Below, piece by piece: positions 1,321 through 16,643 of a stretch of DNA of 50,179 nucleotides. Position 1 is the stretch's first letter. Each line of letters opens with the position of its first letter. The notes under the pieces are model-generated. The model made no database searches. It was not told the DNA's origin and saw only the letters and a program-made list of their open reading frames with translations. The stretch is from an uncultured Kiloniellales bacterium (GTDB lineage Bacteria; Pseudomonadota; Alphaproteobacteria; Kiloniellales; JAKSDN01), in contig CAMYKD010000036.1 of NCBI GenBank assembly GCA_947258885.1, positions 1 to 50,179 on the forward strand, given 5' to 3'. A program made the position numbers and the translations under genes.

Positions 1321-1466
1321 TGCATCGCCGCTACGAGCGCTGTTAGATTGTCAATCTGCCTGGACACTCGCGTGGCTCGGGTCATAAAACCACCCGGTTC
1401 GTGGTTCCCCCGATACGAATGCCGATTTCGATCACTTCCGAAATTCGAAGAGGGGTGAAGGAGAGA

Positions 1467-3110
1467 ATGCGTCCGATATCCCTCAAGCTCAAGATCGGCC
1501 TGTCCCTGGCGGCCGCCCTGACGGTGGCGATGCTCTTGTTCACCCTGCTCGTCGTCCGGCATCAGCGGGAGGAGCTCCTCCAGGGCGCGGCGAGCCACGT
1601 CACCCAGCTTTCCGAGGTGATCATCAAGAGCACCCGTTTCGCCATGCTTCAGTATCAGCCCTCCTATGTCGACAGGGTGATCCAGGACGTGGGGAGCCAC
1701 GAGAGCATCGATAGAGTGAGGGTGCTGAGCAAGGACGGAACGATTACCCACTCCACCCACCTGCCGGAAATCGGAGTGAAGGTGGATCAAAAGGCCGAAT
1801 CCTGTTTCCACTGCCACCAGGGCGAAAAACCCCTGAAGCAAATCCCCAAGAGCAAGCGGGCGCGGATCTTCGCCAACGGTGACGGGGCCCGGCGGCTCGG
1901 CAGCATGGCGGTGATCCGCAACGAGGCGTCGTGCTATACGGCGAGCTGCCATGTGCACAGCGAAGACCAGTCGGTCCTCGGCGTTCTGGATATCGTCTAC
2001 TCCCTCGACGAGATCGATCAGGCGATCCGGACGAATACCGTCACCATCGTCGGCTTTTCCCTGGGGTTCATCATCGTCGCCTCGCTTTGTGTCAGCTTCT
2101 TCGTGCATCGCATGGTCTATGTGCCCCTGCGGGACCTGCAAAGGGGGGCCAAGAGGCTCTCCTCGGGAAATCTGGAACAGCTCATCCCCGTGCGGAGCCA
2201 AGACGAGTGCGGTCAGTTGGCCACCTCCTTCAACGACATGACGCTGGCCCTCAAGAATTCAGAGATGAAATTGCGGGAATGGGGCCACACCCTGGAGCAG
2301 AAAGTGGAAGAGAAGACCCGGGAACTCCACATTGCCCAGGCAGAGTCCGTGCAGAGGGAAAAACTGGCCTCGGTCGGGCTCCTGGCGGCCGGCATCGCGC
2401 ATGAACTAAACAATCCCTTGACCGGGGTTCTCACCTTCTCGCACCTCACACGCGACAAGATGCCGGAGGGAAGCCAGGAGGCGGAAGACCTGGACCTCGT
2501 GATCAAGGAAACCAAGAGATGCTCTTCCATCATCAGGAGACTTCTCGATTTCGCCCGCGAGAAGGCGCCGGAACGGAAATTCGCCGACCTCAACCAGATC
2601 GTCGAAGACACGGCGCAGCTGATCGAACGACCCGCGCATCTCCGCGACATCGAGATCGCCATGGACCTCGACCGTGATCTGCCGCCGATCTGGGTCGACG
2701 AGGACCTGATCAAGCAGGTCGTCATGAACCTGCTCGTCAACGCCCAGCACGCCATAGAGGAGGAGGGCAGCATCACCATTCGCAGCCGCCGTTTCCCGGA
2801 GCCGAGGAGCATTGGACCAGGCATGGAGCCTGAGCCCATGGTGGAGCTCTCGATCATCGATACCGGGTGCGGAATCCCGGAGAAAAACCTTCGGCGGGTG
2901 TTCGATCCCTTCTTCACTTCGAAGGGGGTGGGCGAAGGGACGGGCCTGGGTCTGTCCGTCAGCCATGGGATCGTCCAGGCCCACAACGGGGCGATCGAGG
3001 TGGAGAGCACAGTCGGGGAGGGCTCGACGTTCAGCATCTACCTCCCCCTGGACACGCAGAAAGCAGAAGTGGCGGGAGCAGCCGATGAGCGGCCGAATAC
3101 TGGTAGTTGA
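1467..3110 (+). CDS. Membrane sensor histidine kinase with c-type heme motifs in the periplasmic sensor
   Basis: A 547-residue kinase. A membrane helix (about 9-30) leads to a periplasmic sensor (about 31-190) with CFHCH at 113-117 and CYTASCH at 156-162, which look like one normal CXXCH and one CX4CH heme site. A second membrane helix (about 192-214), a HAMP segment and a coiled coil follow. The HisKA H-box AHELNNPL has its phospho-acceptor His near 312. The ATPase domain has the N-box (NLLVNAQHAI), DTGCGIP and GTGLGLSVSHG. It should sense redox state, or a ligand through heme, and phosphorylate the next gene's product. The ATG at 1467 is preceded by AAGGAGAG; the frame is open back to 1401. 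The 3' end overlaps the response regulator by 26 bases, so the two are co-translated. Confidence 0.88.
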   Translation: MRPISLKLKIGLSLAAALTVAMLLFTLLVVRHQREELLQGAASHVTQLSEVIIKSTRFAMLQYQPSYVDRVIQDVGSHESIDRVRVLSKDGTITHSTHLPEIGVKVDQKAESCFHCHQGEKPLKQIPKSKRARIFANGDGARRLGSMAVIRNEASCYTASCHVHSEDQSVLGVLDIVYSLDEIDQAIRTNTVTIVGFSLGFIIVASLCVSFFVHRMVYVPLRDLQRGAKRLSSGNLEQLIPVRSQDECGQLATSFNDMTLALKNSEMKLREWGHTLEQKVEEKTRELHIAQAESVQREKLASVGLLAAGIAHELNNPLTGVLTFSHLTRDKMPEGSQEAEDLDLVIKETKRCSSIIRRLLDFAREKAPERKFADLNQIVEDTAQLIERPAHLRDIEIAMDLDRDLPPIWVDEDLIKQVVMNLLVNAQHAIEEEGSITIRSRRFPEPRSIGPGMEPEPMVELSIIDTGCGIPEKNLRRVFDPFFTSKGVGEGTGLGLSVSHGIVQAHNGAIEVESTVGEGSTFSIYLPLDTQKAEVAGAADERPNTGS

Positions 3111-4509
3111 CGACGAGGAGATCATCGTCAGGAGTTGCCTTCGTATTCTCGGCGACAGCGAGTACGACGTCGAGGCCGCCCGGGGCGGCTTGGAGGCCCT
3201 CGAAAAAGTCGCCGAGAATTACTACGACGTCCTCATCCTGGATATCATGATGCCGAAAATCGACGGCTTGGAAGTGCTCCAGAGGGTGAAGGAGACTCAC
3301 CCGGACATCGACGTCATCATGGTCACCGGACTCTCCCAGATCGAGACCGCCGTGCGGGCCATGAAGCTGGGCGCCCTAGACTACCTGCACAAGCCCTTCG
3401 ATCCGGACGAACTCAAGCTCGTGGTCGACCGGGCATTCGAGAGACGGCGGCTGCTGCGCGAGAACCTCGACCTCAGAAGCGAGGTCAGCTCCAAGTACCG
3501 TTTCGAGAACATCATCGGGGCCAGCGCCCAGATGCAGAATGTCTATCGGCTCGTCGCGAAGTGTGCGCCCACGAACAGCACGGTCCTGCTCACGGGGGAA
3601 AGCGGCACCGGCAAGGAGCTGATCGCCCGCGCCATCCACTACAACAGCCTTCGGAAGGACAAGCCCTTTGTCCCGGTCGACTGTAACTCGCTGAGCGAAA
3701 ACCTCCTGGAGAGCGAGCTGTTCGGGCACGTCAAGGGCTCGTTCACCGGTGCGGTCGCCAACAAGCGAGGGATGTTCGAAGTGGCGCAAGGCGGAACCCT
3801 CTTCCTGGACGAAATCGGCAACATCACCCTGTCCACTCAGGCCAAGCTCCTCCGGGTCATCCAGGAACGGGAATTCAAGGCGGTGGGGGATACCCGTATC
3901 CAGAGCGCCAACATTCGGCTCTTGACCGCCACGAACAAGGACCTCAAGGCGATGGTGGCCGAGGGGACCTTCCGCGAGGATCTCTTCTACCGCATCAACA
4001 TCTTCCCAATCCAGATACCGCCCCTGAGGGACCGCCGCGACGACATCCCCGCCCTGGCCTTCCACTTCCTCAAGGTCTTCGGTGAGGACCTGGGGAAGAA
4101 GATGACCGAGTTTTCCGTGGGGGCGATGAACCTGCTCGTGAACTATGACTGGCCGGGGAACGTGCGGGAGCTCGAGAACACCGTACACCGCGCGGTGATC
4201 CTCTCCGCCGACGAAGTCATCCGCCAGGGTCACCTGCTGGAAATCATCGACATGGCGCCGCGGTTCGACCTCGACGTGCCGAGGACCGGTGACGAACTCA
4301 AGCGGATAAAGAAGGTAGCGCGCGAGAAGTCGGTGGAAAACATCGAGAGGCTCTTCGTCCTCGAAGCACTCAAGAGGAACGCCTGGAACGTGACCAAGAG
4401 CGCCGAGGACACCGGCATTCAGCGCAGCAATTTTCAGGCTCTCATGAAGAAGTACAATATCCGGATCCGGGGAACCGAACACGACCCCGACGGAGCCGGG
4501 GCCTCTTGA
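3085..4509 (+). CDS. NtrC-type sigma-54-dependent response regulator
   Basis: A 474-residue enhancer-binding protein with three domains. The receiver domain (1-120) has the acidic pair DD at 9-10, phospho-acceptor Asp53 and Lys103. The AAA+ domain (about 140-375) has Walker A GESGTGKE at 171-178, the sigma-54 contact loop as GSFTGA (218-223, a variant of GAFTGA) and Walker B TLFLDE. A Fis-type helix-turn-helix closes the protein (KSAEDTGIQRSNFQALMKKY). It is the partner of the overlapping heme-sensor kinase. The only good -24/-12 promoter seen nearby, at 8164-8179, precedes the operon for receiver proteins, multiheme cytochrome and cytochrome b, so that operon is the likely target. The start at 3085 has GGGAG upstream and lies inside the kinase gene. 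Confidence 0.9.
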   Translation: MSGRILVVDDEEIIVRSCLRILGDSEYDVEAARGGLEALEKVAENYYDVLILDIMMPKIDGLEVLQRVKETHPDIDVIMVTGLSQIETAVRAMKLGALDYLHKPFDPDELKLVVDRAFERRRLLRENLDLRSEVSSKYRFENIIGASAQMQNVYRLVAKCAPTNSTVLLTGESGTGKELIARAIHYNSLRKDKPFVPVDCNSLSENLLESELFGHVKGSFTGAVANKRGMFEVAQGGTLFLDEIGNITLSTQAKLLRVIQEREFKAVGDTRIQSANIRLLTATNKDLKAMVAEGTFREDLFYRINIFPIQIPPLRDRRDDIPALAFHFLKVFGEDLGKKMTEFSVGAMNLLVNYDWPGNVRELENTVHRAVILSADEVIRQGHLLEIIDMAPRFDLDVPRTGDELKRIKKVAREKSVENIERLFVLEALKRNAWNVTKSAEDTGIQRSNFQALMKKYNIRIRGTEHDPDGAGAS

Positions 4510-4597: not shown

Positions 4598-5230
4598 CTA
4601 ACTGCCGGGCTCTTCCTCCATGTCCTCGTATCCGGTGAACATCGCCTTGAAGTGCGCCGTCGGCGTGTGCCCGAGGGTTCCCAGGTAGACGTGGACGAAG
4701 ATGAAGAACGCGAAGAAGATGAAGACCAACACGTGGATCGTATCCACGACCCGGACCCCGCCGAGCAGCTCGACCGCCCCGGAGAAGCGCTTTACGTCCC
4801 AGAGCAGGAGGCCGGTGACGAACTGCACGGGAACGATGAGCAGCATGACGATCTGGTACATCATTCTCTGCAGCGGGTTGAACTTGTTGTACGGGTTCGG
4901 ATGGTGCGGATTCGGGGCGCCTTTGAATATGCCGCCGCCGTAGTACAGCATCTGGCGAAAGGTCTCGCGAAAGTACTTCCGCGGATTGAGGTCCGGGTGA
5001 TAGGCCTTGACCTTGTCCGAGGAGAGATAGAAGAGAAGCCAAATGAAGTAGTTGCCGATGACGACGAACCCGATCCAGTTGTGCAGATCGACGGCGGTCT
5101 CGAACGACATCAGCCCGATCAGTCCGACGTACCTGACTTGAACACCGGTGACGATCAGGGCCACGAAGCCGGTCGCGTTGATCCAATGCCAGATCCGGAC
5201 TGGAAGGGGGTTGAGGTATAGCCGTGTCAT
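4598..5230 (-). CDS. Di-heme b-type membrane cytochrome (HydC/FdnI/b561-like)
   Basis: A 210-residue integral membrane protein with four or five hydrophobic helices. Conserved histidines occur in IWHWINA (about 15), DLHNWIG (50), DTIHVLV (166) and FVHVYLG (180). Four such histidines ligate two b hemes in the HydC/FdnI cytochrome b family, which exchanges electrons between quinone and a periplasmic partner. The gene directly follows the 13-heme cytochrome (14 bases between them) and ends the operon. The pair resembles Cbc-type quinol:cytochrome c modules, in which a b cytochrome feeds a multiheme c cytochrome. An AGGAG sits 9 bases before the ATG at 5230. The direction of electron flow cannot be told from sequence. 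Confidence 0.85.
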   Translation of the reverse strand: MTRLYLNPLPVRIWHWINATGFVALIVTGVQVRYVGLIGLMSFETAVDLHNWIGFVVIGNYFIWLLFYLSSDKVKAYHPDLNPRKYFRETFRQMLYYGGGIFKGAPNPHHPNPYNKFNPLQRMMYQIVMLLIVPVQFVTGLLLWDVKRFSGAVELLGGVRVVDTIHVLVFIFFAFFIFVHVYLGTLGHTPTAHFKAMFTGYEDMEEEPGS

Positions 5231-5244
5231 CTTTCTTCTCCTGA

Positions 5245-6930
5245 CTACCGGTCTTTCTTGAGGAGTCGTCTCATCGTTATGTGCCCGACCGGCACGGCAA
5301 CACCGCCGAGCACGGCGAGCAGGAACAGGATATCCAGCAACTTGATGCGCGTGCCGCCGACGGCGTAGAAGCCGCTTACCGTGCCCACGGAAACGGGGGA
5401 GCTCAGGACCTCTTTGTCGGCCTCGTAGTGCGCCGGCCTGCCGTCGGGTCGGACGATCGAGATCGTGACGCTCTGGAACGGGTCGGCACGGTCCCGGTGG
5501 CAGGTGTCGCAGTTCCGGACCGCGTCGGTCTTGGCGGACAGCTGGTGCGCCTCGACGCCGGTGCGAACCTCCATTCGGCCCCGCAGCGACAATTCGGCCG
5601 CCGTCCCCTCCCTGTTGATATCCCTCACCAGGTTCCACAGCTCCATCGCATCCAGGCCATCGCCTTCGGCGTCGGCCGCGCGGATCCGGTCGTCGAACCG
5701 CAGGCCCTCCTGCTCCGAAATCGGCGTTCGCGCCACCGCGTCGTAGAGCCCGAGGTCGATCCTGCGCCGCGCCTTGGGCGCATGGCAGGCAGGACAAGAC
5801 ACCGCCTCGAGATGCAGCGCGGTATTCGGGAGCCACGCCTGGTGGCTGTCTGTCGCACCCTCGTGGCACGCCAGGCACGCGTCTTTCAGCCGAGTGCCCG
5901 TCGAAGCGACGCCCACGTCGTGAGCGCGATGGCAGTCGGCGCAGATGGGGGCCGCGATGTGGCCCGGCTTGCTGCGGGCCTGGCCGTGCATGCTCCCGAG
6001 ATAGGCCTCGAAGATGTTCTCGTGACACTTCTTGCAGGGCACGCCGGCGATCGTCTCGTAGGTGGCCTTGGGGCCGACCGCATGAGACCCGTGGCAATCC
6101 GTGCAGACCGGGGCTGCCAGGTTGCCGTCATCCAGGAGGGTGGCATGGATGCTCTCGGCATATTGCTCGTACTTGTCTCCATGGCACTGGCGGCAGACCT
6201 CGGCCCGCACAATGGACCGCTCGCGCGGGCTCGCAAAAGTTCCCACCTCGTGGGCTTCCTTCGAGAAGCCGGCATGGCAATCCGCGCATGCATGGTCGAG
6301 ATGCACCGAATTGCGGAGAGCCGCTTCGTCGAGGGACAGCGAGTGCAACCCGCCGTCTCCGAGCGGGGCGCTGAGGGCCTGCCCATGGCAGGTGAGGCAG
6401 TACGCCGTTTCTTCGACGCCTGCCTTCCACTCCGCCATTCTTCCGATGGCGTGCGCGTCGTGGCATTCGGCGCAGGCCGGGCCGCCGGCACTCGACACCC
6501 GCGCGTGATGCGCCGGGCCGTCTTTCAGGCTCTCGCCCGAGTGGCACTGCGAGCAGACCTGCGATGCCCGCAAGCGATATGCGCGCGCGCTGTCGAAATT
6601 CCTCTCTACGGGGTGGGTCTCGAGATCGACATCCCCATGGCAGCCGGCGCAGCCCATCCAGACGTGGACCGACTCACCGAAGGCTTCGCCCCCGACGTGC
6701 AGGGACAGCGTCTGCCCGTTCGCGAGAGTCTTCTCCATCCCCTCGGACGCGTGGCAGGAGAGGCACGTCTCGTCCGCTTCGGACAGTGAGCTTGTCTCGC
6801 TGCCCGTAGCGGCAAAGGCGGACCCCAACGCGACAGGAAACAGCACAAGAAACACTGCAACGCCAGCAATGACGGCACCCGCGCCGAGTGCCCTGCTTGC
6901 CGCTGCGCCTTCTCTCCGAGCGCTGGCCAT
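5245..6930 (-). CDS. 13-heme c-type cytochrome, membrane-anchored
   Basis: A 561-residue protein. An N-terminal hydrophobic segment (about 16-40) is a signal peptide or anchor. It is followed by 13 CXXCH sites, from CLSCH (56-60) to CDTCH (474-478), including CAGCH, CSQCH, CRQCH, CKKCH and CPACH. A membrane helix near 531-551 and the basic tail RRLLKKDR finish it. Between hemes 12 and 13 is a stretch of about 90 residues without heme, containing the acidic loop DAEGDGLDAME, which resembles a calcium-binding loop. Multiheme cytochromes of this kind carry electrons across the periplasm. The start at 6930 has AAGGAG upstream; the frame is open further 5' but has no signal peptide there. I cannot assign it to a named cytochrome. 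Confidence 0.85.
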   Translation of the reverse strand: MASARREGAAASRALGAGAVIAGVAVFLVLFPVALGSAFAATGSETSSLSEADETCLSCHASEGMEKTLANGQTLSLHVGGEAFGESVHVWMGCAGCHGDVDLETHPVERNFDSARAYRLRASQVCSQCHSGESLKDGPAHHARVSSAGGPACAECHDAHAIGRMAEWKAGVEETAYCLTCHGQALSAPLGDGGLHSLSLDEAALRNSVHLDHACADCHAGFSKEAHEVGTFASPRERSIVRAEVCRQCHGDKYEQYAESIHATLLDDGNLAAPVCTDCHGSHAVGPKATYETIAGVPCKKCHENIFEAYLGSMHGQARSKPGHIAAPICADCHRAHDVGVASTGTRLKDACLACHEGATDSHQAWLPNTALHLEAVSCPACHAPKARRRIDLGLYDAVARTPISEQEGLRFDDRIRAADAEGDGLDAMELWNLVRDINREGTAAELSLRGRMEVRTGVEAHQLSAKTDAVRNCDTCHRDRADPFQSVTISIVRPDGRPAHYEADKEVLSSPVSVGTVSGFYAVGGTRIKLLDILFLLAVLGGVAVPVGHITMRRLLKKDR

Positions 6931-6961
6931 GTGCTTTGCTCCTTTCCCCTCTCGAGCTTCC

Positions 6962-6984
6962 CCGGGGGGCGTTTCGCCCCCCGG
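6962..6984. other. Very stable hairpin in the leader of the 13-heme cytochrome gene
   Basis: CCGGGGGGCG (6962-6971) and CGCCCCCCGG (6975-6984) form a perfect 10-bp GC stem with a TTT loop. It lies 32 bases upstream of the cytochrome start, between it and the receiver-TM gene. No T run follows on the minus strand, so it looks more like an mRNA-processing or stability element than a terminator. Confidence 0.5.
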
Positions 6985-7046
6985 CGACGGCCGCTTCCTT
7001 TGCACGGCAGCGGCCGGCCGCTGTGCGTGGTTCAAGCGCCGGAGGA

Positions 7047-7646
7047 TTACCCGGCCTTGTATCGCCGCACCAACGCGCGGCCCCCGAACCAGGCCAGCAA
7101 ACCCAACCCGACGAAGGGCAGGGAAACGGCGTACACCAGCCCCACGAAAGGCGCCGCGAGAAGCAGTGCGGTGTTCTTCGTGATGCCGGCGACGGTCTTC
7201 CACACGCTCGTCTCCGCCATCTCGGGACGCGGCTCGATGGCCGCTTCGGCCGCTTGCGGCGCAGCCTCGCCCGCCTCTTTCTCGTGCAGGGCCTTCAAGG
7301 TGATCCCTTCGATCATTTCCGGCGTGAGAGGCTTGCGCACGAAGCCCGATACCCCCAGCACCTCGGCCGTGGCCTCGTTGGCGGCCGTGCCATAACCGGT
7401 GACTATGACCACCGGGGTCCAGGGGCACTTCTCCTTGATCCGCTTGGTCACCTCGAAGCCGTCCATCCCCGGCATCTTGATGTCGGTGAAGACGACGTCG
7501 AAATCCTTCCCGCTGATCTCGTTCAGCGCCTCGGGCCCGCTAAGGGCGGTGCTCACCGCATAGCCCTTTTGTGAGAGGACCCGGTCGAAACTCCGGCCGA
7601 CGACTGCATCGTCGTCAACTACGAGCACTTTCGGTGACGTATTCAT
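7047..7646 (-). CDS. Receiver-domain protein with a C-terminal membrane segment
   Basis: About 199 residues. Positions 1-120 form a CheY-like receiver with DDD at 11-13, phospho-acceptor Asp55 (FTDIKMPG), Thr84 and Lys106. No DNA-binding or enzymatic output domain follows. Instead there is an Ala/Glu-rich linker (about 122-145) and a long hydrophobic segment (about 160-188, TALLLAAPFVGLVYAVSLPF) ending in RRYKAG. The segment could span the membrane once or as a hairpin. AAGGAGG is 8 bases before the ATG at 7646 and too close to the in-frame ATG at 7652. The gene sits between a receiver-only protein and the 13-heme cytochrome, so it may link phosphorylation to the cytochrome complex at the membrane. 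That role is inference. Confidence 0.8.
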   Translation of the reverse strand: MNTSPKVLVVDDDAVVGRSFDRVLSQKGYAVSTALSGPEALNEISGKDFDVVFTDIKMPGMDGFEVTKRIKEKCPWTPVVIVTGYGTAANEATAEVLGVSGFVRKPLTPEMIEGITLKALHEKEAGEAAPQAAEAAIEPRPEMAETSVWKTVAGITKNTALLLAAPFVGLVYAVSLPFVGLGLLAWFGGRALVRRYKAG

Positions 7647-7679
7647 GACCATTCCTCCTTGCCTCGCTATGCGGGGCTA

Positions 7680-8126
7680 CTAGTGCTCCCACGGGAACCG
7701 GTACTTGAACCGGTCCCCACTGTCCGGACCCGTGCGGTCACTGTGCAGGGCCCACTTCTTCTGCATGAGGGCGCCATTGGCCACCTCGACGATTTCGTCG
7801 GGACTGACCGGCTTGGCGAGGTAGTGGTACGCGCCGAGGCGGACCGCCTCCTTGGCAGTCTCGATGGACGGGTATCCCGTGATGATGACGACCTCGCTCT
7901 CGGGCCACCTCTCCTTGATGGTCTTCAGGACCGACATGCCGTCCAGACCCGGCATGCGAAGGTCGAGCAGCACAACGTCGAACGGGTGCTGCTCCATCGC
8001 ATGCAGCGCCTCTGCTCCGTTCCAGGCCGCTTCCGCGTTGCAGTGAGCGGCCGCCAGGGTCCTGAGATGGCTGAGGCGGACCACTTCTTCATCGTCCACG
8101 ATGAGGATATTTGATTTCTCGGCCAT
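7680..8126 (-). CDS. Single-domain response regulator (receiver)
   Basis: A 148-residue protein that is almost entirely a CheY-like receiver: acidic DDEE at 11-14, phospho-acceptor Asp55 (LLDLRMPG), Thr83 in ITGYPS and Lys105 in YLAKPVS. About 30 residues follow without a recognisable output domain. It is the first gene of the minus-strand operon that continues with the receiver-TM protein, 13-heme cytochrome and cytochrome b. A -24/-12 promoter lies 38 bases upstream of the start. Single-domain receivers act by protein contact or as phosphate sinks. The start at 8126 was chosen because the receiver fold begins there and GGTGG lies upstream; an in-frame ATG at 8168 is within the promoter element. 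Confidence 0.85.
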   Translation of the reverse strand: MAEKSNILIVDDEEVVRLSHLRTLAAAHCNAEAAWNGAEALHAMEQHPFDVVLLDLRMPGLDGMSVLKTIKERWPESEVVIITGYPSIETAKEAVRLGAYHYLAKPVSPDEIVEVANGALMQKKWALHSDRTGPDSGDRFKYRFPWEH

Positions 8127-8163: not shown

Positions 8164-8179
8164 AGCAACTTCCATGCCA
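8164..8179 (-). promoter_or_regulatory. Sigma-54 (-24/-12) promoter of the multiheme cytochrome operon
   Basis: Read on the minus strand, TGGCAT-GGAAG-TTGCT matches the sigma-54 consensus TGGCAC-N5-TTGCW with one change (T for C at the sixth base) and exact spacing. It sits 38 bases upstream of the receiver gene start, giving a leader of about 26 bases. The NtrC-type activator at 3085-4509 is the obvious candidate to drive it. Confidence 0.72.
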
Positions 8180-8295
8180 GAGTTCATTGAGATCGGGAAA
8201 AGCAGATTTATACTATTATTTTTAATACCTTACCCTATCGCACCGGCAAGGCGGACACGCGATTCGACCTTCCGGCAATCCGCTTGAAGTATATA

Positions 8296-8386
8296 TTTCT
8301 TGTACAATCCGAAGGGGTTGGGGGATATAATTCCGTCTTTTCAATAAGTTACGATAATTCGCCACCTGTATTTTTTTCTTGTACAT
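8296..8386. repeat. Two TTTCTTGTACA direct repeats, candidate enhancer sites
   Basis: TTTCTTGTACA occurs at 8296-8306 and 8375-8385, 79 bp apart in an AT-rich stretch. The first contains the palindrome TTGTACAA. They lie about 120-215 bp upstream of the sigma-54 promoter, the usual distance for enhancer-binding-protein sites. No gene is seen in 8127-8425. Confidence 0.45.
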
Positions 8387-8425
8387 CTCCGCGGCGGCGG
8401 AGGAGTCCGTGGCCGGTCGGGCCGG

Positions 8426-9814
8426 TCAGCCGGAGGGACCCGGCGCCCCCTTGGCCCGCACGAAGGCGACGAACCGGCCGACCCAAGGGGTCGACTTCAC
8501 GTCGCGGAGGTGCATGAAACTGGCCGTCAGGTTCCCGATGACGATGCCGTCGTTCTGTCCATCGACCCCGGCCCCGCGCAGCATGCGATAGGCGTAGGCG
8601 AGGTCGCCGGGAAGGTTCTCGAGCGATGCGTAGTGGAATTCATGCGCCGAGAGCCGCGCCGGGGTCCCGGCGCCCGCGTCGGAATCCAGCAGCCACGAGC
8701 CCTGGCCCGTTTCCTCGAATTGCACGTAGCCGCGGCCTACCGGACGCTCGTTCATGATCGCGTCGCCGGGAATGACGCCGACCATCTCTTGGGTCTCGCC
8801 GCGCCAGGTCAGGCTTCGTGCCAAGTACATCAAGCCGCCGCATTCCGCATAGGCCGGCAGGCCGGCCTCGATGGCCGTCTTGATCGAAGCGCGCAGACTG
8901 TGGTTGGCCGAAAGCGCGGCCATGTGGACCTCGGGGAATCCGCCGCCGATGAAGAGCCCGTCCACGTCGGGCAGGCACTGGTCGTGCAGGGTGTCGAAAG
9001 GAACCAGCTGCGCGCCGCTGGCGGCGAAGGCATCGAGGTCGTCGGGGTAATAGAAGCCGAAGGCGGCGTCGCGGGCGATCCCGATACGCAGGTCCGCCGC
9101 GCGCGGCGTGGCGAAGAGCGCGGCAGGCGGAGGGGCCTCGGCCGCAAGCGCAACTATTCGGTCGAGATCGACCTGCTCCGCCACGGTCTTGGCCAAGCGT
9201 GCGATCTTCGCCTCGGCCCCGGACTCTTCGTTGGCGGGGACCAGCCCGAGGTGCCGTTCGCGAATTTCGATCTCAGGGTCGCGGCGGATCGCGCCCAACA
9301 CCGGGACATCGGTGTATCGTTCGATCGAGGCCCGCAGCTTTCCTTCGTGCCGCGGCCCGCCGACCTTGTTCAGGATCACGCCCTTGATCGAGACCGCCGG
9401 ATCGAAATCCTGATACCCGCGTATCAAGGGCGCAACTCCGCGGGTCATGCCGCGTGCGTCGATGACGAGGACCACCGGCGCGTCGAGCAGCCTGGCCAGG
9501 GCGGCGTTGCTGTCGGCGCCCGCCACGTCGACGCCGTCGTAAAGGCCCTTGTTGCCTTCGATCAGGCCGAAATCGGCACCGGCCGCGTGGCGGCCGAAGA
9601 GCTCCAGGATCTCCCGCTCGCCCATCGTGTAGAAGTCGAGGTTTCGGCAGGGCCGGCCGGCGGCACGGCCGAGCCACAGAGGATCGATGTAATCCGGCCC
9701 TTTCTTGAAGGTCTGTACAGCGAGCCCGCGCCGAGAGAGCGCGGCCGCGATGCCGACCGAAATGGACGTCTTGCCCGAGGACTTGTGCGCGGCCGAGATC
9801 AGGAGATATGCCAA
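8426..9814 (-). CDS. dsrN: DsrN, CbiA/CobB-like siroheme amidase (glutamine amidotransferase)
   Basis: A 462-residue homologue of cobyrinate a,c-diamide synthase. The N-terminal ATP-binding half has SAAHKSSGKTS and KKGPDYIDPLW. The C-terminal glutaminase half has GGGFPEVH and the nucleophilic Cys in AECGGLMYL. In Dsr clusters this protein is thought to amidate siroheme to the siro(heme)amide cofactor of DsrAB. Its place as last gene of the dsr run supports that over cobalamin synthesis. I prefer a TTG start at 9814, with GGAGG 9 bases upstream and the family N-terminus (LAYLLISAAHK) starting right there. An in-frame ATG at 9871 would add 19 unconserved residues. Confidence 0.88.
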   Translation of the reverse strand: MAYLLISAAHKSSGKTSISVGIAAALSRRGLAVQTFKKGPDYIDPLWLGRAAGRPCRNLDFYTMGEREILELFGRHAAGADFGLIEGNKGLYDGVDVAGADSNAALARLLDAPVVLVIDARGMTRGVAPLIRGYQDFDPAVSIKGVILNKVGGPRHEGKLRASIERYTDVPVLGAIRRDPEIEIRERHLGLVPANEESGAEAKIARLAKTVAEQVDLDRIVALAAEAPPPAALFATPRAADLRIGIARDAAFGFYYPDDLDAFAASGAQLVPFDTLHDQCLPDVDGLFIGGGFPEVHMAALSANHSLRASIKTAIEAGLPAYAECGGLMYLARSLTWRGETQEMVGVIPGDAIMNERPVGRGYVQFEETGQGSWLLDSDAGAGTPARLSAHEFHYASLENLPGDLAYAYRMLRGAGVDGQNDGIVIGNLTASFMHLRDVKSTPWVGRFVAFVRAKGAPGPSG

Positions 9815-9940
9815 CCCTCGAAACCTCCACTCCTTTCGCACCAAGTCTAGCTGGTTTTCTCGGGACGGCACGGGAAACTCCGCGCCAGGGGGGTGCCAGC
9901 GGTCGAGTGGCCGGGCGCGACCTGGAAGCGGCGGCTTAGA

Positions 9941-11182
9941 TCAAGCCGGCGCTTTCTCCTCGGCGACGGTCGGCGCGGCGCGGTGGTGCGGGTCCAAGGC
10001 CGCGTCGGCCAAGCTCTCCGGCAGGAAGCGCAACGACCTGAGACCGACCATCACGATCGCGGCGGCCATCGCGAAGCCGCCTACGCCCAAGGTGATCTCC
10101 GGCCAGCTGGGCACGTAGCTCATCACCACGCCGTCGAAGAAGCTGCTCTGGACCTCTTTCCCCGGGAAGAGCACCAGCGGATAGGCCTGACCGCCGATCA
10201 CGATGACGTAGATCTGCGCGATGCCGCCCAGGAAGACAAGGATCGAGGCCAGCACGACCCGGCCCAAGGCCCGTCCCGCCGGCAACGTGAACACCAGGGC
10301 GATCGGCACAAGGCCGCCCAGCAGAACCTGGCCGACCCAGAACAGGGCCGTGAAGACCCCGCCCTCGAGCAGGATGAACCGTTCGACACCCGCGTGCTCG
10401 GCGGCATAGAGATTGGTCAGATGCTGCACCGCCGTGAAATAGAGGACCACGGCGGCGAGCACGCCCATAAGCCGGCCGAGCCGGCTCACCAGGCCGTCCC
10501 CGAGCTCCAGGCCGGTCCCCCGGCAGATCGCGGCGAGGGTCAGATTGAAGCTGGCAAGCCCGAGGGACAGCGACATGGCGATGAAGAGGGGCGCCAGGAC
10601 GGCGGCGTCATAGGCCTGGCGCGCGATGAGAAAACCGAAGATCGAGCCGGTACCGGTCGTGAGCACGAGACGCCAAATCATGGCCACGAGACCCGCCGCC
10701 GGCGCGAAGCGGTTCATGCGCCGTTCCATCTGGACCCAGAGATAGACCACGACGACCGCCATGAAGCCCGTGTAGAGATAGATGTTCCAGGCGAAGATGG
10801 ATTTGAAGTTGTAGGTCGTCATGGCGACGAGGATCCGGTCCGCCCGGCCGAGATCCAGAACCAGGACCGCGAGCCCGCCGACCAGAAGCGCGAGCGCCAG
10901 TAGGCCCGACAAACGGCCCAACGGCTTGTACCAGGTTCGCCCGAACACGGTTCCGAGCGAGGCGACGTTGAGCGCCCCAGAGGCCGCCACGATCAGGAAG
11001 ATGGCCAGGACGTGCGGCATGCCCCAGACGATCTGGTTGGTCATGCCGGTGACGTGGTGTCCCTGGTGTTCCATGTGCCAGGCCGCCGCGAGCGACAGCA
11101 GGATCAGGACACCCAACCCGGCCATCAGGCCATAGAACCCGACGTACTGCCCCGTGATCTCGCGGTAGGTGGTTCGCCTCAT
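9941..11182 (-). CDS. dsrP: DsrP, NrfD/PsrC-like membrane subunit of DsrMKJOP
   Basis: A 413-residue protein with about ten hydrophobic helices, of the NrfD/PsrC family. It begins MRRTTYREITGQYVGFYGLM and contains GMPHVLAIFLIVAASGALN and TTYNFKSIFAWNIYLYTGF, typical of DsrP. In sulfur oxidisers DsrP is the quinone-interacting membrane subunit that works with DsrO and DsrJ. The DsrMKJOP complex is believed to reoxidise or release sulfur from the DsrC trisulfide and pass electrons to the quinone pool. The gene starts 14 bases after dsrO. The 25-residue charged C-terminal tail (HHRAAPTVAEEKAPA) is cytoplasm-like and poorly conserved. Confidence 0.93.
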   Translation of the reverse strand: MRRTTYREITGQYVGFYGLMAGLGVLILLSLAAAWHMEHQGHHVTGMTNQIVWGMPHVLAIFLIVAASGALNVASLGTVFGRTWYKPLGRLSGLLALALLVGGLAVLVLDLGRADRILVAMTTYNFKSIFAWNIYLYTGFMAVVVVYLWVQMERRMNRFAPAAGLVAMIWRLVLTTGTGSIFGFLIARQAYDAAVLAPLFIAMSLSLGLASFNLTLAAICRGTGLELGDGLVSRLGRLMGVLAAVVLYFTAVQHLTNLYAAEHAGVERFILLEGGVFTALFWVGQVLLGGLVPIALVFTLPAGRALGRVVLASILVFLGGIAQIYVIVIGGQAYPLVLFPGKEVQSSFFDGVVMSYVPSWPEITLGVGGFAMAAAIVMVGLRSLRFLPESLADAALDPHHRAAPTVAEEKAPA

Positions 11183-11196
11183 CGTGCCCTCGCCGG

Positions 11197-11964
11197 TCAC
11201 AGGTTCCGATACCGCACCCCGGGATCGAGTCCGAGATCGGGGCGGATCTGGTCGGTCACATAGGCGGCGACCTGCTTGGAGATCCGGCTGTCCGGATCGT
11301 TCAGGTCCCCGAAGGTCATGGCGTCCCCGCCGGCTTCGGCGCAGGCCTCGACGCAGGCCGGCGTCCGGCCCTCGTCGACCCTGTGGACGCAGAAGGTGCA
11401 GCTTTCCACGGTCCCCTTGCCGCGCGGCGCGTAGGGCTTCTGGTCCTCGACCACCTCGTGGATGAAGGAGCGCGCCTTGTAGGGACAGGCCAACATGCAA
11501 TAGCGGCATCCGATACAGATGTGCTTGTCGACCAGCACGATGCCGTCCGCGCGCTTGAAGGAGGCGCCGGTCGGGCAGACGTCGACGCAGGGCGGCGAGG
11601 CGCAATGCTGACACATCAACGGCAGCGACCGCTTGGCCCCGGTGGACGGGTCGCGGAGCTCCACCTTGCGTATCCACTGGGCGTCGGTTTCCGGCCGCCC
11701 GTTGCCACGCAACCCGTTCTCCTCGACACAGGCCGTGACACAGGCGTTGCAGCCCTCGCGGCACTTGTTGACGTCGACGAGCAGGCCCCAGCGCACGCTC
11801 GACGTGACGGGATCCTCCGGCGCGCGCGCAGCGGCAGAACCGGCCGCGGTGACGCCGTAAAAGGTCACGCCAGGCGCCAGCGTAACGCCGGCGGCGGCCG
11901 CGGCGGCGCTCAAGAAGCGGCGGCGCCGTGGATCGAATCCCTGTTGCGGCGTACGGCCGGTCAT
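11197..11964 (-). CDS. dsrO: DsrO, Tat-exported ferredoxin-like iron-sulfur subunit
   Basis: 255 residues. The N-terminus has a twin-arginine signal (RRRRFLSAAAAAAGVTLAPG), so the protein is exported folded to the periplasm. Cysteine motifs for about four [4Fe-4S] clusters follow: CREGCNACVTAC, CQHCASPPCVDVC, CIGCRYCMLAC and CTFC...CVEAC. This is the DmsB/NrfC fold. It forms the periplasmic arm of DsrMKJOP and passes electrons between DsrJ and DsrP. Its ATG overlaps the dsrJ stop by four bases (ATGA), a sign of translational coupling. Confidence 0.95.
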   Translation of the reverse strand: MTGRTPQQGFDPRRRRFLSAAAAAAGVTLAPGVTFYGVTAAGSAAARAPEDPVTSSVRWGLLVDVNKCREGCNACVTACVEENGLRGNGRPETDAQWIRKVELRDPSTGAKRSLPLMCQHCASPPCVDVCPTGASFKRADGIVLVDKHICIGCRYCMLACPYKARSFIHEVVEDQKPYAPRGKGTVESCTFCVHRVDEGRTPACVEACAEAGGDAMTFGDLNDPDSRISKQVAAYVTDQIRPDLGLDPGVRYRNL

Positions 11965-12404
11965 TGCACTTCACTCTCTTGACGGAGTTCGCCCGCGGTA
12001 CGCGAGAACGCGCCGGCCCGCTTGGTGTCCGCCTCGCCGGGCCGCGCGGCATGGCACTGGAAGCAGTCGATCGTGACCGCCGCGTAGTCGTGGCAGCTGC
12101 GGCAGAACTGACCGGGCGCGTTGATGGAAGCATAGCCGCCCGTGGCGGCCGGCGTGGCATGGCAGGCGACGCACTCCTTGAGGCTGAACTTCCTCGTGCG
12201 CACGCCGCGGTGCATGGTCTCGTCGCGCTGGTGGTCCAGCTCCGTCATGTGGTTGCGCCGCATGTAGTCCGTGTCGGCTACGCAGGCCTCGCCCTTGCCC
12301 TTCACGATCGTGGGCAGCGGCACGCGGCCGGCGTCGCCGTCCTGCGCCGCAGCCGCGGCGGGCGCGAGAAGCAGGAGCAAGGCGAGGACGAGACGGCGGC
12401 ACAT
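11961..12404 (-). CDS. dsrJ: DsrJ, periplasmic triheme cytochrome c
   Basis: 147 residues. A hydrophobic N-terminus (LVLALLLLLAPAAAAA) is a signal peptide or anchor. Three heme sites are present: CVACH, CRSCH and CFQCH. A lone Cys in KGEACVADTDYMRRNHM before the first heme matches the family pattern in which a Cys serves as an unusual heme ligand. DsrJ is the cytochrome subunit of DsrMKJOP. The conserved block ACVADTDYMRRNHM..L.H.RDETMH..VR is characteristic of DsrJ. The gene lies between dsrL and dsrO. Confidence 0.94.
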   Translation of the reverse strand: MCRRLVLALLLLLAPAAAAAQDGDAGRVPLPTIVKGKGEACVADTDYMRRNHMTELDHQRDETMHRGVRTRKFSLKECVACHATPAATGGYASINAPGQFCRSCHDYAAVTIDCFQCHAARPGEADTKRAGAFSRTAGELRQESEVQ

Positions 12405-12407
12405 GGG

Positions 12408-14336
12408 TTACTCTCCCAACCCCATCTGAATGTAGCCGGTCGGACAGACATCGGCACAGATATGGCAGCCGATGCAGCGGGTGTAGTCGGTCTCCACGTA
12501 GCGACCCAGCGTGGCTTCGGTCTTCTTGACCCGGTAGACCGCGTCCTGCGGGCAGTAGATCACGCAGTTGTCGCACTGCAGGCAGGTGCCGCAACTCATG
12601 CAACGGGCGGCCTCGGCCTGCGCCTCCTCCTCCGTCAGCCCCTTCATGCGCTCTCTGAACTCGCCTACCATGGCCTCCGGCGAGGCCTCCAGTTCCTCGC
12701 GGCGGTGCCGCGCGCTGTACTGGAAATGCCCGAGGAAGAGCTCGTCGGCGGGCGCGATCTCGACCTGCGAACGGTCCTCGTAGTTGTGCACCGCGTAGTC
12801 GCTGAAACAGGTGCCCCGGTCCTGCCGGTGGTCGTACTCCTCCGGCTCGTGGTCCCCTTCCCTCAGCTTGTCCAGAAGGTCGTAGTGGTGCACGTCCACT
12901 TTCGGGCGGCGCGACGGCTCGCCACCGCGCACGAAGTGGTCGATGCTCTCGGCCGCGATGGAGGCGTGGCCGATGGCCGTGGTCAGCAGATGCGGACGCA
13001 GGACGTCGCCGCCGGCAAAAAGCTTCTCCCGACCGGCGATCCTGTAGACGCCGTCCGCCGTGATCAGCCCCTTACCGTTGTCGAGCCCCTCCAGCCCGGT
13101 GAAATCGCAGACCTGCCCGATGGCGGAGACGATGAGGTCGCATTCGAGGTCGAATTCGGTTCCCTCCCTCGGTATCACGTCGCCGTTCTTCCAGTCGACT
13201 TCGACCATGCGCAGGCCCGTGGCGCGCCCGTCCTCGCCCCGGTGCACCTCGAGCGGGGTCACGGAGCTGCGGATCTCGACGCCTTCCCGCAGCGCGTGCT
13301 CGACTTCCTTTTGGGACGCCGGCGTGTCCTCCTCGGCCTCGCGGTAGTAGATCTTGACCTCCGCGCCCTGGCGCTTGGCAACCCGCGCCACGTCATGCGC
13401 CGTCTGGCCCAGCACGGCGAATTCCGGGCGGTCCTTCTCGTGTGCCTGCTCGACGTGCCCGAGACGCCGCGCCACCGTGGCGACGTCCATCGCCGTGTCG
13501 CCGCCGCCGATGACCAAAACTCGCTGGGCCGCGTGCTTCAGACGCCCGTCGTTGAAGGCCTCGAGGAAGGCGACGCCGCTGATGCAGTTCGGCGCCTCGC
13601 CGCCCGGGATCGGTAAGGCCATGCCCGACTGGGCGCCGAGGGCTACGAAGACGGCGTCGAATTCCCGCTCCAGCTCCTCGAGGGAGACGTCAACGCCGAT
13701 CTTCGTGTTCGTGCGCGTCTCGACGCCGAGGTCCAGTACCCGCTGTATCTCGGCGTCCAGCACCTCGCGCGGCGTGCGGAATCCCGGAATGCCGTAGCGC
13801 ACCATGCCGCCGAGCTCCTCGTGGCCCTCGAACACCGTGCAGGCGTGCCCTTTGCGGCGCAGTTGATAGGCGCAGGCGAGCCCCGCGGGTCCACTGCCGA
13901 TGATGGCGACCTTCTTGCCCGAATCGGGGCCGGCTGGATGCAGCTTCAGCCCGTGCTCAAGGGCATAGTCGCCGATGAACTGCTCGACCGCGTTGATCCC
14001 GACGTGGTCCTCGACCTCGTTGCGGTTGCAGCCGTCCTCGCAAGGCGCCGGACAGACCCGTCCCATGATGGCCGGAAAGGGATTGGCGTCGGTCAGCCGC
14101 CGAAAGGCGTATTCCTGCCAAGGCATGTCCGCCGGCGGCTTCTCCAGGCCGCGTGTGATGTTGAGCCATCCGCGGATATCCTCGCCGGACGGGCAGCTGC
14201 CCTGGCAGGGCGGCGTGCGGTGGACGTAGACCGGGCATTTGTACGAGGAATCCGCCTCGAAAATCTCCTGCTGCCAGGGACGATGGGCGCTGTCCCCGTC
14301 CTTGAAGCGGCGCTTGGTCAAGAGAGTCTCGTTCAT
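12408..14336 (-). CDS. dsrL: DsrL, NAD(P)-linked flavin/iron-sulfur oxidoreductase
   Basis: 642 residues, related to the small subunit of glutamate synthase. The N-terminal part has cysteines for Fe-S clusters (CPVYVHRTPPCQGSCPSG and CPAPCEDGCNR). An FAD site (IIGSGPAGLACAYQL, near 146-160) and a second dinucleotide site (VIGGGDTAMDVATVARRLG) follow. The C-terminus carries a ferredoxin domain (CMSCGTCLQCDNC and CIGCHICADVCPTGYI). DsrL is cytoplasmic, binds DsrAB and takes electrons from sulfur oxidation to NAD(P). It is diagnostic of the oxidative Dsr pathway, being absent from most sulfate reducers. A GAGGAG precedes the start. Confidence 0.95.
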   Translation of the reverse strand: MNETLLTKRRFKDGDSAHRPWQQEIFEADSSYKCPVYVHRTPPCQGSCPSGEDIRGWLNITRGLEKPPADMPWQEYAFRRLTDANPFPAIMGRVCPAPCEDGCNRNEVEDHVGINAVEQFIGDYALEHGLKLHPAGPDSGKKVAIIGSGPAGLACAYQLRRKGHACTVFEGHEELGGMVRYGIPGFRTPREVLDAEIQRVLDLGVETRTNTKIGVDVSLEELEREFDAVFVALGAQSGMALPIPGGEAPNCISGVAFLEAFNDGRLKHAAQRVLVIGGGDTAMDVATVARRLGHVEQAHEKDRPEFAVLGQTAHDVARVAKRQGAEVKIYYREAEEDTPASQKEVEHALREGVEIRSSVTPLEVHRGEDGRATGLRMVEVDWKNGDVIPREGTEFDLECDLIVSAIGQVCDFTGLEGLDNGKGLITADGVYRIAGREKLFAGGDVLRPHLLTTAIGHASIAAESIDHFVRGGEPSRRPKVDVHHYDLLDKLREGDHEPEEYDHRQDRGTCFSDYAVHNYEDRSQVEIAPADELFLGHFQYSARHRREELEASPEAMVGEFRERMKGLTEEEAQAEAARCMSCGTCLQCDNCVIYCPQDAVYRVKKTEATLGRYVETDYTRCIGCHICADVCPTGYIQMGLGE

Positions 14337-14354
14337 ACCTCTGCTCCTCTCCGG

Positions 14355-15908
14355 TCAGGGACCGGCTTGCCCTGCGGCCGCCGTCTCCTCGGTCTCTTCC
14401 TCGGTCCCGGCCGCGGCCTCCGCCTGGCCGCCCAGAACGATCGCGTTGCTGACGAGCTGATGCAGGCTCACGACCGAATCCATGTCGAAGCCGTAGTCCG
14501 GCATCACCTTGGCGAACTGGCTCTTACAAATCGCGCAAATCGACGCCATGTGGGTGACGCCGTGCTCGTCGGCCACCTGCTTCAGGGCCTGCATGCGCGG
14601 CTGCGCGCCCTTGACGCGGAGCTCCAGCAGATCGTCGGTCAGCAGCCCGCCGCCGCCGCCGCAACAGAAGGTGGCGTCGCGGATGGTGTCGTCGGGCATG
14701 TCGACGAAGTTGTTGCAGCAGGCCTTGATTATGGCGCGCGGAATCTCGAACTGCCCGCCGGGCCGGTCGCCCATGCGCGAGGCCCGCGCCACGTTGCAGG
14801 AATCGTGGAAGGTCAGGGTCATGTGGTCGTTGGCCGACTTGTCCAGCTTCAACGCGCCCTTCTGGATCAGGTCGTAGGTGAACTCGCAGACGTGCTGCGG
14901 CACCGGGTAGGCGGGATCGAGGAAGTCGAAGGGTCCCGCCAGGGTGTTCCAGAAGCTGTAGGCGACCCGCCAGGCATGCCCGCACTCGCCCACGACGATA
15001 CGCCTCACGCCCAGGTCCAAGGCGGCCTTCCTGATCCTCTGGGCGACCTCGTGCATCTGCTCGTAGGAGCCGATGAACATCGCGAAATTGGCGGCTTCGG
15101 AGGCGTAGGAGCTGATCGTCCAGCTGACGCCCGCCTGGTGGAACACCTTGGCGTAGCCGATCAGCCCGTCGACGTGCGGCTCGGCGAAGAAATCCGCGCT
15201 CGGCGCGACCAGCATGACCTCCGCCCCCTCTACGTCGAGCGGCAGGCGGACCTGGACGCCGGTCTCCTCCTCGATGTCCTCTTCCAGCCCCTCGAGCGTG
15301 TTGGCCAGCGCCGGCTCCGGAAGGCCCAGGTTGTTGCCGATCTTGTGGACCTTGGCGATGATCTCGTTGCAGTACTTCTGGCCCTTGCCGATGTGGTCCA
15401 TGATCTCCCTGGCCGCCATCGAGATCTCGGCGGTGTCGATGCCGTAGGGGCAGTAGACGGAACACCGGCGGCACTGCGAGCACTGGTGAAAATAGTTGTA
15501 CCAGTCGTCCAGCACCTCTTCCGTCAGATCCGCCGCGCCCACCAGCCACGGCAACCACTTTCCCGCCAGCGTGAAGTGGCGCCGGTAGACCTTGCGCATC
15601 AGGTCCTGGCGCGCCACCGGCATGTTCTTCGGGTCGCCGGTGCCCAGGAAGTAGTGGCATTTGTCGGTGCAGGCGCCGCAGCGGACGCAGGCGTCCAGAT
15701 AGACCCGCAGCGAACGGGACCGGCCCAGCAGCTCGTCGAATTTCTCGATGGCCTTGTCGTGCCAGCCCTCGACCAGCTCGCCGGGAAATCCCAACGCCTC
15801 CTGGTGCTGGGGCGCCGCCGGGTAAGTGCTGAGGTGGCCCATGGCGCCCTCGGCAATCCTCGGCGGCTCGGTGTATTCCTTGAGCTCTGGGATTTGATAG
15901 TCGGCCAT
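14355..15908 (-). CDS. dsrK: DsrK, HdrD-like catalytic iron-sulfur subunit
   Basis: 517 residues. Two ferredoxin motifs near 73-150 (CVRCGACTDKC and CSQCRRCSVYC) are followed by CCG-type domains with DSCNVAR and FCCGGGGGLL, the signature of heterodisulfide-reductase subunit D. DsrK is the cytoplasmic face of DsrMKJOP and is thought to act on the DsrC trisulfide through a special [4Fe-4S] site, passing electrons to the b hemes of DsrM. The Ala/Glu-rich tail (EAAAGTEEETEETAAAGQAGP) looks like an unstructured extension. Its start is 4 bases after the dsrM stop. Confidence 0.95.
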   Translation of the reverse strand: MADYQIPELKEYTEPPRIAEGAMGHLSTYPAAPQHQEALGFPGELVEGWHDKAIEKFDELLGRSRSLRVYLDACVRCGACTDKCHYFLGTGDPKNMPVARQDLMRKVYRRHFTLAGKWLPWLVGAADLTEEVLDDWYNYFHQCSQCRRCSVYCPYGIDTAEISMAAREIMDHIGKGQKYCNEIIAKVHKIGNNLGLPEPALANTLEGLEEDIEEETGVQVRLPLDVEGAEVMLVAPSADFFAEPHVDGLIGYAKVFHQAGVSWTISSYASEAANFAMFIGSYEQMHEVAQRIRKAALDLGVRRIVVGECGHAWRVAYSFWNTLAGPFDFLDPAYPVPQHVCEFTYDLIQKGALKLDKSANDHMTLTFHDSCNVARASRMGDRPGGQFEIPRAIIKACCNNFVDMPDDTIRDATFCCGGGGGLLTDDLLELRVKGAQPRMQALKQVADEHGVTHMASICAICKSQFAKVMPDYGFDMDSVVSLHQLVSNAIVLGGQAEAAAGTEEETEETAAAGQAGP

Positions 15909-15911
15909 GGT

Positions 15912-16643
15912 CTATTCACCCGTCGACTCGAGCCTAGCCGCCCAAGGCGCCAGATGGCGTTTCTCCCTCGCGTCGTCGGCCTGGTTGCGGGTCGGGCTGA
16001 AGAAGATGCCCGGCGCGTGGAGCAGCTTGCTGAACGGGAACACGGCCATCAGCGCGGCCACCAGCCCCAGGTGGATGAGCAGCATCAGATCAGCCGGCAA
16101 GGGCTGCCAATCGAAATACATGAGGCCGAGCACGAAGGCCTTGAGCGCCACGATGTCGACGCGGTCGACATAGCGCATGGCGAAGCCGCTGACCGCGATG
16201 CCGCAAAGCAGAAGCAGCATCAGGTGATCCGAGGGCCCGGTGATGTAGCGGATACGCTCGATCGCCACCCGGCGCAGCCATAGCCCGAGCAACCCGGCGA
16301 GCATGGCATAGCTGGCGTACAGACCGAAGGGCTGCAGCAGAACGACCCAGGTCCAGGGCGGCTCGGTGAAATACCGCAGGTGCCGCAGCAGGACCAGCAG
16401 CAGCGCAAAGTGGAACATCCAGCCGAAGATCCAGGTCCACTTGTTCGACCTGAACAGACTCTCGAACAGGGCCACCTCGCGCCCCATGCGCAGGGCCACG
16501 CCCGGCAGCGAGAGCGGCGCCGGCGTCGTCGGTATCTTGAGCGGCGCCGGCGTCTTGGCATACTGCCAGACCTTGTAAGCCAATCCGCCCGCCAAGAGCA
16601 GAGTGGCCGCGTAGAACAAGATTGCGTATGCCGCCGTCAACAT
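15912..16643 (-). CDS. dsrM: DsrM, di-heme cytochrome b (NarI-like) subunit
   Basis: 243 residues with about five or six membrane helices. Histidines in the helices, such as FHFALLLVLLRHLRYF, SDHLML and LLIHLGLVAAL, fit the NarI-type b heme ligands. DsrM anchors DsrK to the membrane and couples it to quinone. The phrase FPFSKLLHAPGIFFSPTRNQ near the end is a family signature. It starts the membrane-complex part of the operon, 60 bases after dsrC. Confidence 0.93.
   Translation of the reverse strand: MLTAAYAILFYAATLLLAGGLAYKVWQYAKTPAPLKIPTTPAPLSLPGVALRMGREVALFESLFRSNKWTWIFGWMFHFALLLVLLRHLRYFTEPPWTWVVLLQPFGLYASYAMLAGLLGLWLRRVAIERIRYITGPSDHLMLLLLCGIAVSGFAMRYVDRVDIVALKAFVLGLMYFDWQPLPADLMLLIHLGLVAALMAVFPFSKLLHAPGIFFSPTRNQADDAREKRHLAPWAARLESTGE

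Follow-up and report, generated by a model that had tools for sequence, protein, structure and literature searches.

A putative sigma-54 promoter with two activator dyads and alternating IHF-like sites ahead of a receiver and multiheme cytochrome operon

What switches on an operon in which receiver proteins are encoded together with cytochromes, and through which DNA sites? The window, as we call the whole 50,179-nucleotide stretch analysed here, carries such an operon on its minus strand. Its predicted genes are RR1, a stand-alone receiver domain that would be the first gene of the controlled operon (7680..8126); RR2, a receiver domain fused to a C-terminal hydrophobic segment, APFVGLVYAVSLPFVG... 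(7047..7652); a multiheme cytochrome c with 13 CxxCH motifs and a C-terminal hydrophobic segment (5245..7008, start codon approximate); and a cytochrome b561 / thiosulfate-reductase-type b subunit (4598..5227, start approximate), nearest to the thiosulfate reductase b model with a score under that model's cut-off. The plus strand carries a histidine kinase with HAMP, HisKA and HATPase domains (1401..3110, start approximate) and, convergent to the operon, an NtrC/AtoC-type activator (3085..4509). From the sequence, we put a probability of roughly 85% on the reading that a sigma-54 promoter and its enhancer lie ahead of RR1 and drive the RR1-RR2-multiheme cytochrome-cytochrome b operon, switched by the activator of the convergent pair via two sites, UAS1 and UAS2, with two IHF bends.

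With its 13 CxxCH motifs and b subunit, the operon product would be a membrane electron-transfer unit. In the kinase, a single CxxCH and a single CX4CH lie in the stretch that separates two hydrophobic segments, which makes it a possible heme-based sensor; these cytochrome-like motifs suggest that it senses a redox signal. The activator has the architecture of an NtrC-family enhancer-binding protein, namely a receiver, a sigma-54 AAA+ domain (both identified by Pfam) and a C-terminal helix-turn-helix (HTH). Its loop reads GSFTGA, a variant of GAFTGA, and no GAFTG was found. It matches the AtoC and ZraR models over their full length, both below their cut-offs (463.6 bits against 714 for the NCBIfam AtoC equivalog), and PDB sequences matched the activator only at the generic level of the NtrC family and the cytochrome only weakly.

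We compared the region with related loci. Scanning genome contigs with RR1 gave 525 confirmed matches, and among the best 80 of these we used 56 loci (L007-L062) in which RR1 is 55-95% identical over its best segment, setting aside L063-L086 as more distant (RR1 38-50%). The related loci belong to alpha-, beta- and gammaproteobacteria, known from MAGs and, in a few cases, from isolates. Most of the 56 have RR2, the multiheme cytochrome and cytochrome b downstream, as detected by tblastn.

The predicted sigma-54 -24/-12 element is TGGCATGGAAGTTGC on the minus strand (8165..8179, or from 8164 with the following T), assigned by consensus match and conservation. The GG of -24 lies at 8178-8177 and the GC of -12 at 8166-8165, and the element ends 38 bp ahead of the RR1 ATG (8126). 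Counting from the -12 position would place +1 at about 8153, near the 8152 of the initial annotation, with a leader of about 27 nt to the ATG. The element has one mismatch to TGGCACN5TTGC, and the window contains three matches at up to one mismatch against 3.2 expected, so that the match alone is at chance level. It gains its significance from conservation in the related loci. A sigma-54 element lies within 140 bp of the orthologous RR1 start in 52 of the 56 (200 shuffles: mean 0.41, maximum 3), and the stricter TGGYAYN5TTGC is found in 42 (shuffles: mean 0.03, maximum 1). The remaining four loci (L038, L042, L045 and L046) have a small gene resembling the RR2 hydrophobic tail in front of RR1; there the sigma-54 element lies 387-479 bp upstream, above the extra gene, and above the element stands a dyad of the kind described below in three loci and a half-site in one. 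The assembly has one rpoN gene (PF04552 match, 237 bits). The initial annotation had proposed a sigma-54 promoter and, upstream of it, an enhancer of two sites, and the comparison supports both.

The enhancer sites were first recognised as a repeat. The 11-bp word TTTCTTGTACA occurs on the plus strand at 8296-8306 and 8375-8385, and these are its only two exact copies in the 4.9-Mb assembly. Within the window, the two exact copies are joined by zero extra copies at one mismatch; 0.11 were expected, and two were reached in 0 of 100 shuffles. The two 11-bp repeats 79 bp apart are thus as real as first described, and unique to this place. Their distance of 120-215 bp upstream was also roughly right, with 117 and 196 bp between their starts and the -24 element. 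The suggestion that the repeat is the activator's DNA motif fared less well: what is conserved is instead a dyad, GRWGTAYA-N7-TRTACWYC, about 23 bp long. The 11-mer, TGTACAAGAAA when read on the minus strand, takes in one half-site and some of the A-rich spacer; as a word, its TTTC end is not conserved.

The window has two predicted copies of this dyad, both on the minus strand. The proximal copy, UAS2 (ATTGTACAAGAAATATATACTTC, 8286..8308, score 23/26), includes the first repeat and is centred 118 bp upstream of the -24 element. The distal copy, UAS1 (GATGTACAAGAAAAAAATACAGG, 8365..8387, score 21/26), includes the second repeat and is centred 197 bp upstream. The A-rich middle of the dyad suggests a Fis-like recognition of a narrowed minor groove. 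A dyad-like match at 1150-1168, with a cytochrome c gene on one side and the kinase gene on the other, showed no clear sigma-54 element by eye and was taken as chance.

We obtained the dyad from enriched words and by visual comparison of the upstream regions; EM motif discovery on these regions converged on AT-rich sequence, and its output was discarded. Words such as GAAGTACA were found in 18 of 53 upstream regions against 0.20 expected. The best dyad scored at least 21/26 in 44 of 53 regions, compared with 33 of 3120 shuffled regions, and the second-best at least 20 in 22 of 53, compared with 2 of 3120; these scores are descriptive and no independent test, because the motif was derived from the same regions. 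UAS2 reached at least 19 in 45 of the 52 regions with enough sequence and stayed below 19 in seven. The loose form TGTAYN9RTACW showed no assembly-wide enrichment, with eight rows at six distinct places against ten rows for the reversed control; UAS1 and UAS2 are two of the six places.

IHF-like sites alternate with the two dyads, giving the order UAS1-IHF1-UAS2-IHF2-promoter. IHF recognises the consensus WATCAANNNNTTR. In the window, the putative IHF1 lies between UAS1 and UAS2 (TAACTTATTGAAA, 8339..8351, minus strand) and matches 8 of 9 consensus positions, and the IHF2 position lies between UAS2 and the promoter (TAAGGTATTAAAA, 8220..8232, minus strand) and matches 7 of 9, below threshold. 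At the place equivalent to this weak IHF2, the near relatives L007 and L008 have 8/9. Across the related loci, 39 of 52 regions contain YAANNNNTTGATW at 8/9 or better in one orientation, where shuffled sequence gave a mean of 7.3 and a maximum of 11; the opposite orientation shows no comparable excess (12 regions; shuffle mean 8.5). PMC7962754 gives the IHF consensus as WATCARXXXXTTR and describes IHF as commonly binding between enhancer and promoter at sigma-54 promoters. The architecture here differs from such IHF-assisted promoters in general by having IHF-like words at two positions, the upstream one separating the enhancer dyads, and by spacings that change mostly by about one turn.

We measured spacing in the 45 loci with UAS2 at 19 or more, counting UAS1 at 17 or more within 70-90 bp of UAS2 and searching each IHF site in 39 positions; the loci share ancestry, and their counts are not independent events. 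At these thresholds, UAS1 is missing in 10 of the 45 loci, IHF1 in 21 and IHF2 in 17. The upstream half is nearly constant. UAS1 lies 77 (1 locus), 78 (9), 79 (9), 80 (15) or 81 bp (1) from UAS2 in all 35 loci with a detected UAS1, and IHF1 lies 48 (6), 49 (17) or 50 bp (1) from UAS2 in all 24 with a detected IHF1. Distances towards the promoter fall mostly into groups about 10-11 bp apart, matching the DNA helical repeat. IHF2 is 36 (4), 37 (10), 47 (3) or 48 bp (11) from -24 in all 28 loci with a detected IHF2; in the same number of loci, UAS2 and IHF2 are 49 (1), 59-61 (4), 69-71 (21) or 78-80 bp (2) apart. UAS2 itself stands 85 (1), 95-98 (7), 105-109 (9), 114 (1) or 116-120 bp (27) from -24, with L052, at -114, out of register. 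A simple periodicity statistic on UAS2 positions was uninformative, many periods scoring alike, because one position group dominates. About 7.5 turns separate UAS1 from UAS2. Straight DNA would therefore present them on opposite faces, and an intervening bend at IHF1 could align them. The initial annotation had missed both the two IHF-like sites and this apparent turn-wise spacing.

Searching genomes for UAS2 followed by the sigma-54 pattern uncovered further candidate promoters of the same design. The query contained no IHF sites and was run on 48 genomes holding 49 of the 56 loci. It gave 54 matches in 33 of the 48 genomes, against one for the reversed control. Judged from sequence, 31 of the 54 are known RR1 promoters, and 20 further promoters were fetched; G065:C25, G063:C54 and G089:C347 were left out and may be chance. 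Eighteen of the 20 head a visible gene and two lie at contig ends. The genes headed encode a solo RR2 hydrophobic segment (6), an RR2-like protein (4), RR1 (2), a cytochrome c-histidine kinase-activator operon (2), cytochrome c (1), a DUF3373 protein (1), a rhodanese protein (1) and a GspH/PilY1 minor-pilin operon (1). Fourteen of the 18 promoters thus head RR1, RR2, a solo RR2 hydrophobic segment or the cytochrome c-histidine kinase-activator operon, the last of which (L151, L152) is the activator's own operon. The solo segments, similar to the hydrophobic segment of RR2, are encoded as small genes at L135, L136, L140, L143, L144 and L147, each with its own UAS and sigma-54 promoter. At the minor-pilin operon (L154; G067:C38), UAS1-UAS2 is 80 bp and IHF1-UAS2 49 bp, a sigma-54 element is present and IHF2 scores only 7.

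The geometry of the further promoters resembles that of the RR1 set. Although IHF was not in the query, 18 of the 20 have IHF2 (at least 8) at -36/-37, and 17 of 19 readable promoters have IHF1 (at least 8) 47-50 or 60 bp from UAS2. UAS1 at 17 or more was seen in only 11 of 19, at 77-80 bp (7), 89-90 bp (3) or 75 bp (1). Where UAS1 sits at 89 bp (L145, L148), IHF1 is shifted as well, to 60 bp, a joint displacement of about one turn. In homologous promoters whose parts are displaced mostly by about one helical turn, nature has in effect run an experiment on DNA looping. The assembly that contains the window has a single UAS2 and sigma-54 match. Among 55 genomes near that of the window, UAS2 with a promoter was found in all four that have the cytochrome and in three of the 51 that lack it; the reversed pattern gave three matches.

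These promoters bear on what the IHF-like words are. With promoter and dyads taken as real, the words might serve otherwise, for example as AT-rich DNA with an intrinsic bend, or as the binding site of HU or some further protein. Only 17 of 52 regions reach a full 9/9 match, the IHF2 of the window is weak, and PF00216, by which six HU/IHF-family genes were found in the assembly, does not separate IHF from HU. We nevertheless consider such a reading unlikely, since the words match the IHF consensus strand-specifically at fixed positions and recur in promoters found without using them.

Does the neighbouring activator act on the dyads? At a bit score of at least 206 (tblastn), the activator lies within the fetched flank of 36 of the 56 loci, mostly in the convergent orientation that it has in the window; one locus, L053, is rearranged. 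Its absence from the flanks of the other 20 would fit a sigma-54 promoter whose dyads bind a different regulator encoded elsewhere, the neighbouring activator serving other targets. Yet 16 of the 19 genomes that hold these 20 loci encode an activator orthologue of 70-84% identity, either past the fetched flank or at another place in the assembly. The three assemblies with no match at the cut-off may be missing sequence, because they are MAGs. Further against a different regulator, the activator is the only recognised DNA-binding protein among the six module proteins, its C-terminal HTH is nearly invariant across 56 aligned sequences, and the dyad heads the cytochrome c-histidine kinase-activator operons of L151 and L152, all of which makes that alternative improbable. 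The activator at 3085-4509, named from the start as the natural candidate, is accordingly favoured by neighbourhood, by co-occurrence and by the same enhancer before these operons in two genomes. That the two repeats arose by chance or local duplication beside an unrelated promoter, as the chance-level sigma-54 match in the window alone might allow, is scarcely credible given dyads and promoter conserved at loci from three proteobacterial classes.

What sequence comparison shows is a conserved promoter, a pair of dyads, words resembling IHF sites in set positions, the spacing of these parts, the co-occurrence of the activator gene and further promoters of this design in relatives; we infer activator binding to the dyads, IHF binding to its sites, activator phosphorylation and the redox sensing of the kinase. 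In the mechanism we propose, the histidine kinase would phosphorylate the activator, as expected for its family. The phosphorylated activator would bind UAS1 and UAS2 as dimers and then oligomerise. Two IHF bends, one in the UAS1/UAS2 interval and one in the UAS2/promoter interval, would bring it to the sigma-54 RNA polymerase. Its AAA+ domain, through the GSFTGA loop, would contact the polymerase and open the promoter, and the operon of two receivers, 13-heme cytochrome and cytochrome b would be switched on.

We lean, by a modest degree, towards a broader view: that UAS1-IHF1-UAS2-IHF2 is an ancient and previously undescribed four-part enhancer that works as a single rigid nucleoprotein complex in the alpha-, beta- and gammaproteobacteria. 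The spacing within the upstream half would be fixed, and distances to the promoter would change essentially only by whole turns. Multiheme cytochromes and membrane-anchored receivers would then make up the regulon of an unnamed redox-sensing activator, joined in one genome by a minor-pilin/PilY1 operon. The analysis provides a testable DNA motif and regulon for a family of activators that only generic models recognised here.

CbcBA of Geobacter sulfurreducens is a pair of multiheme c- and b-type cytochromes with the sigma-54 regulator BccR. That system is not known to include receiver-only proteins. CbcBA is characterised as an inner-membrane cytochrome for low-potential respiration in PMC12307469. 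For Desulfovibrio, PMC4641369 describes an enhancer-binding protein, DVU3142, beside a multiheme cytochrome/heme b operon with sigma-54 promoters and predicted sites. There the regulator gene is divergent, whereas the activator here is convergent, and the Ohc operon is described with an octaheme cytochrome and an iron-sulfur protein; the string 'GTAC' is absent from the main text of that paper. By function, DVU3142/Ohc (PMC4641369) and BccR/CbcBA are the closest systems. FhlA of the enterobacterial formate hydrogenlyase promoters is alike in its sigma-54 promoters and palindromic activator site centred on GTAC, listed as CATTTCGTACGAAATG in PMC4987338. That paper lists FhlA as formate-responsive, whereas the activator here has a receiver domain, and the dyad here is GTAY-N9-RTAC with an A-rich middle. 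Among the open-licence papers listed by our searches we recognised none that describes the dyad or module, and 'TGTAC' and 'BccR' each had no occurrence in a set of 15 of them.

By joining receiver-only proteins to 13-heme and b-type cytochromes, the operon likely encodes an uncharacterised membrane electron-transfer route. In this genome it adjoins dsr sulfur genes. The sulfur-metabolism cluster next to the enhancer spans 8426-16643 on the minus strand and includes DsrK, at 599 bits to an NCBIfam equivalog whose cut-off is 400, together with a CobB-like (dsrN-like) protein and neighbours that, judged by eye from their translations, resemble DsrM, L, J, O and P. Among the 56 relatives, tblastn detected the CobB-like neighbour in only two, L007 and L008.
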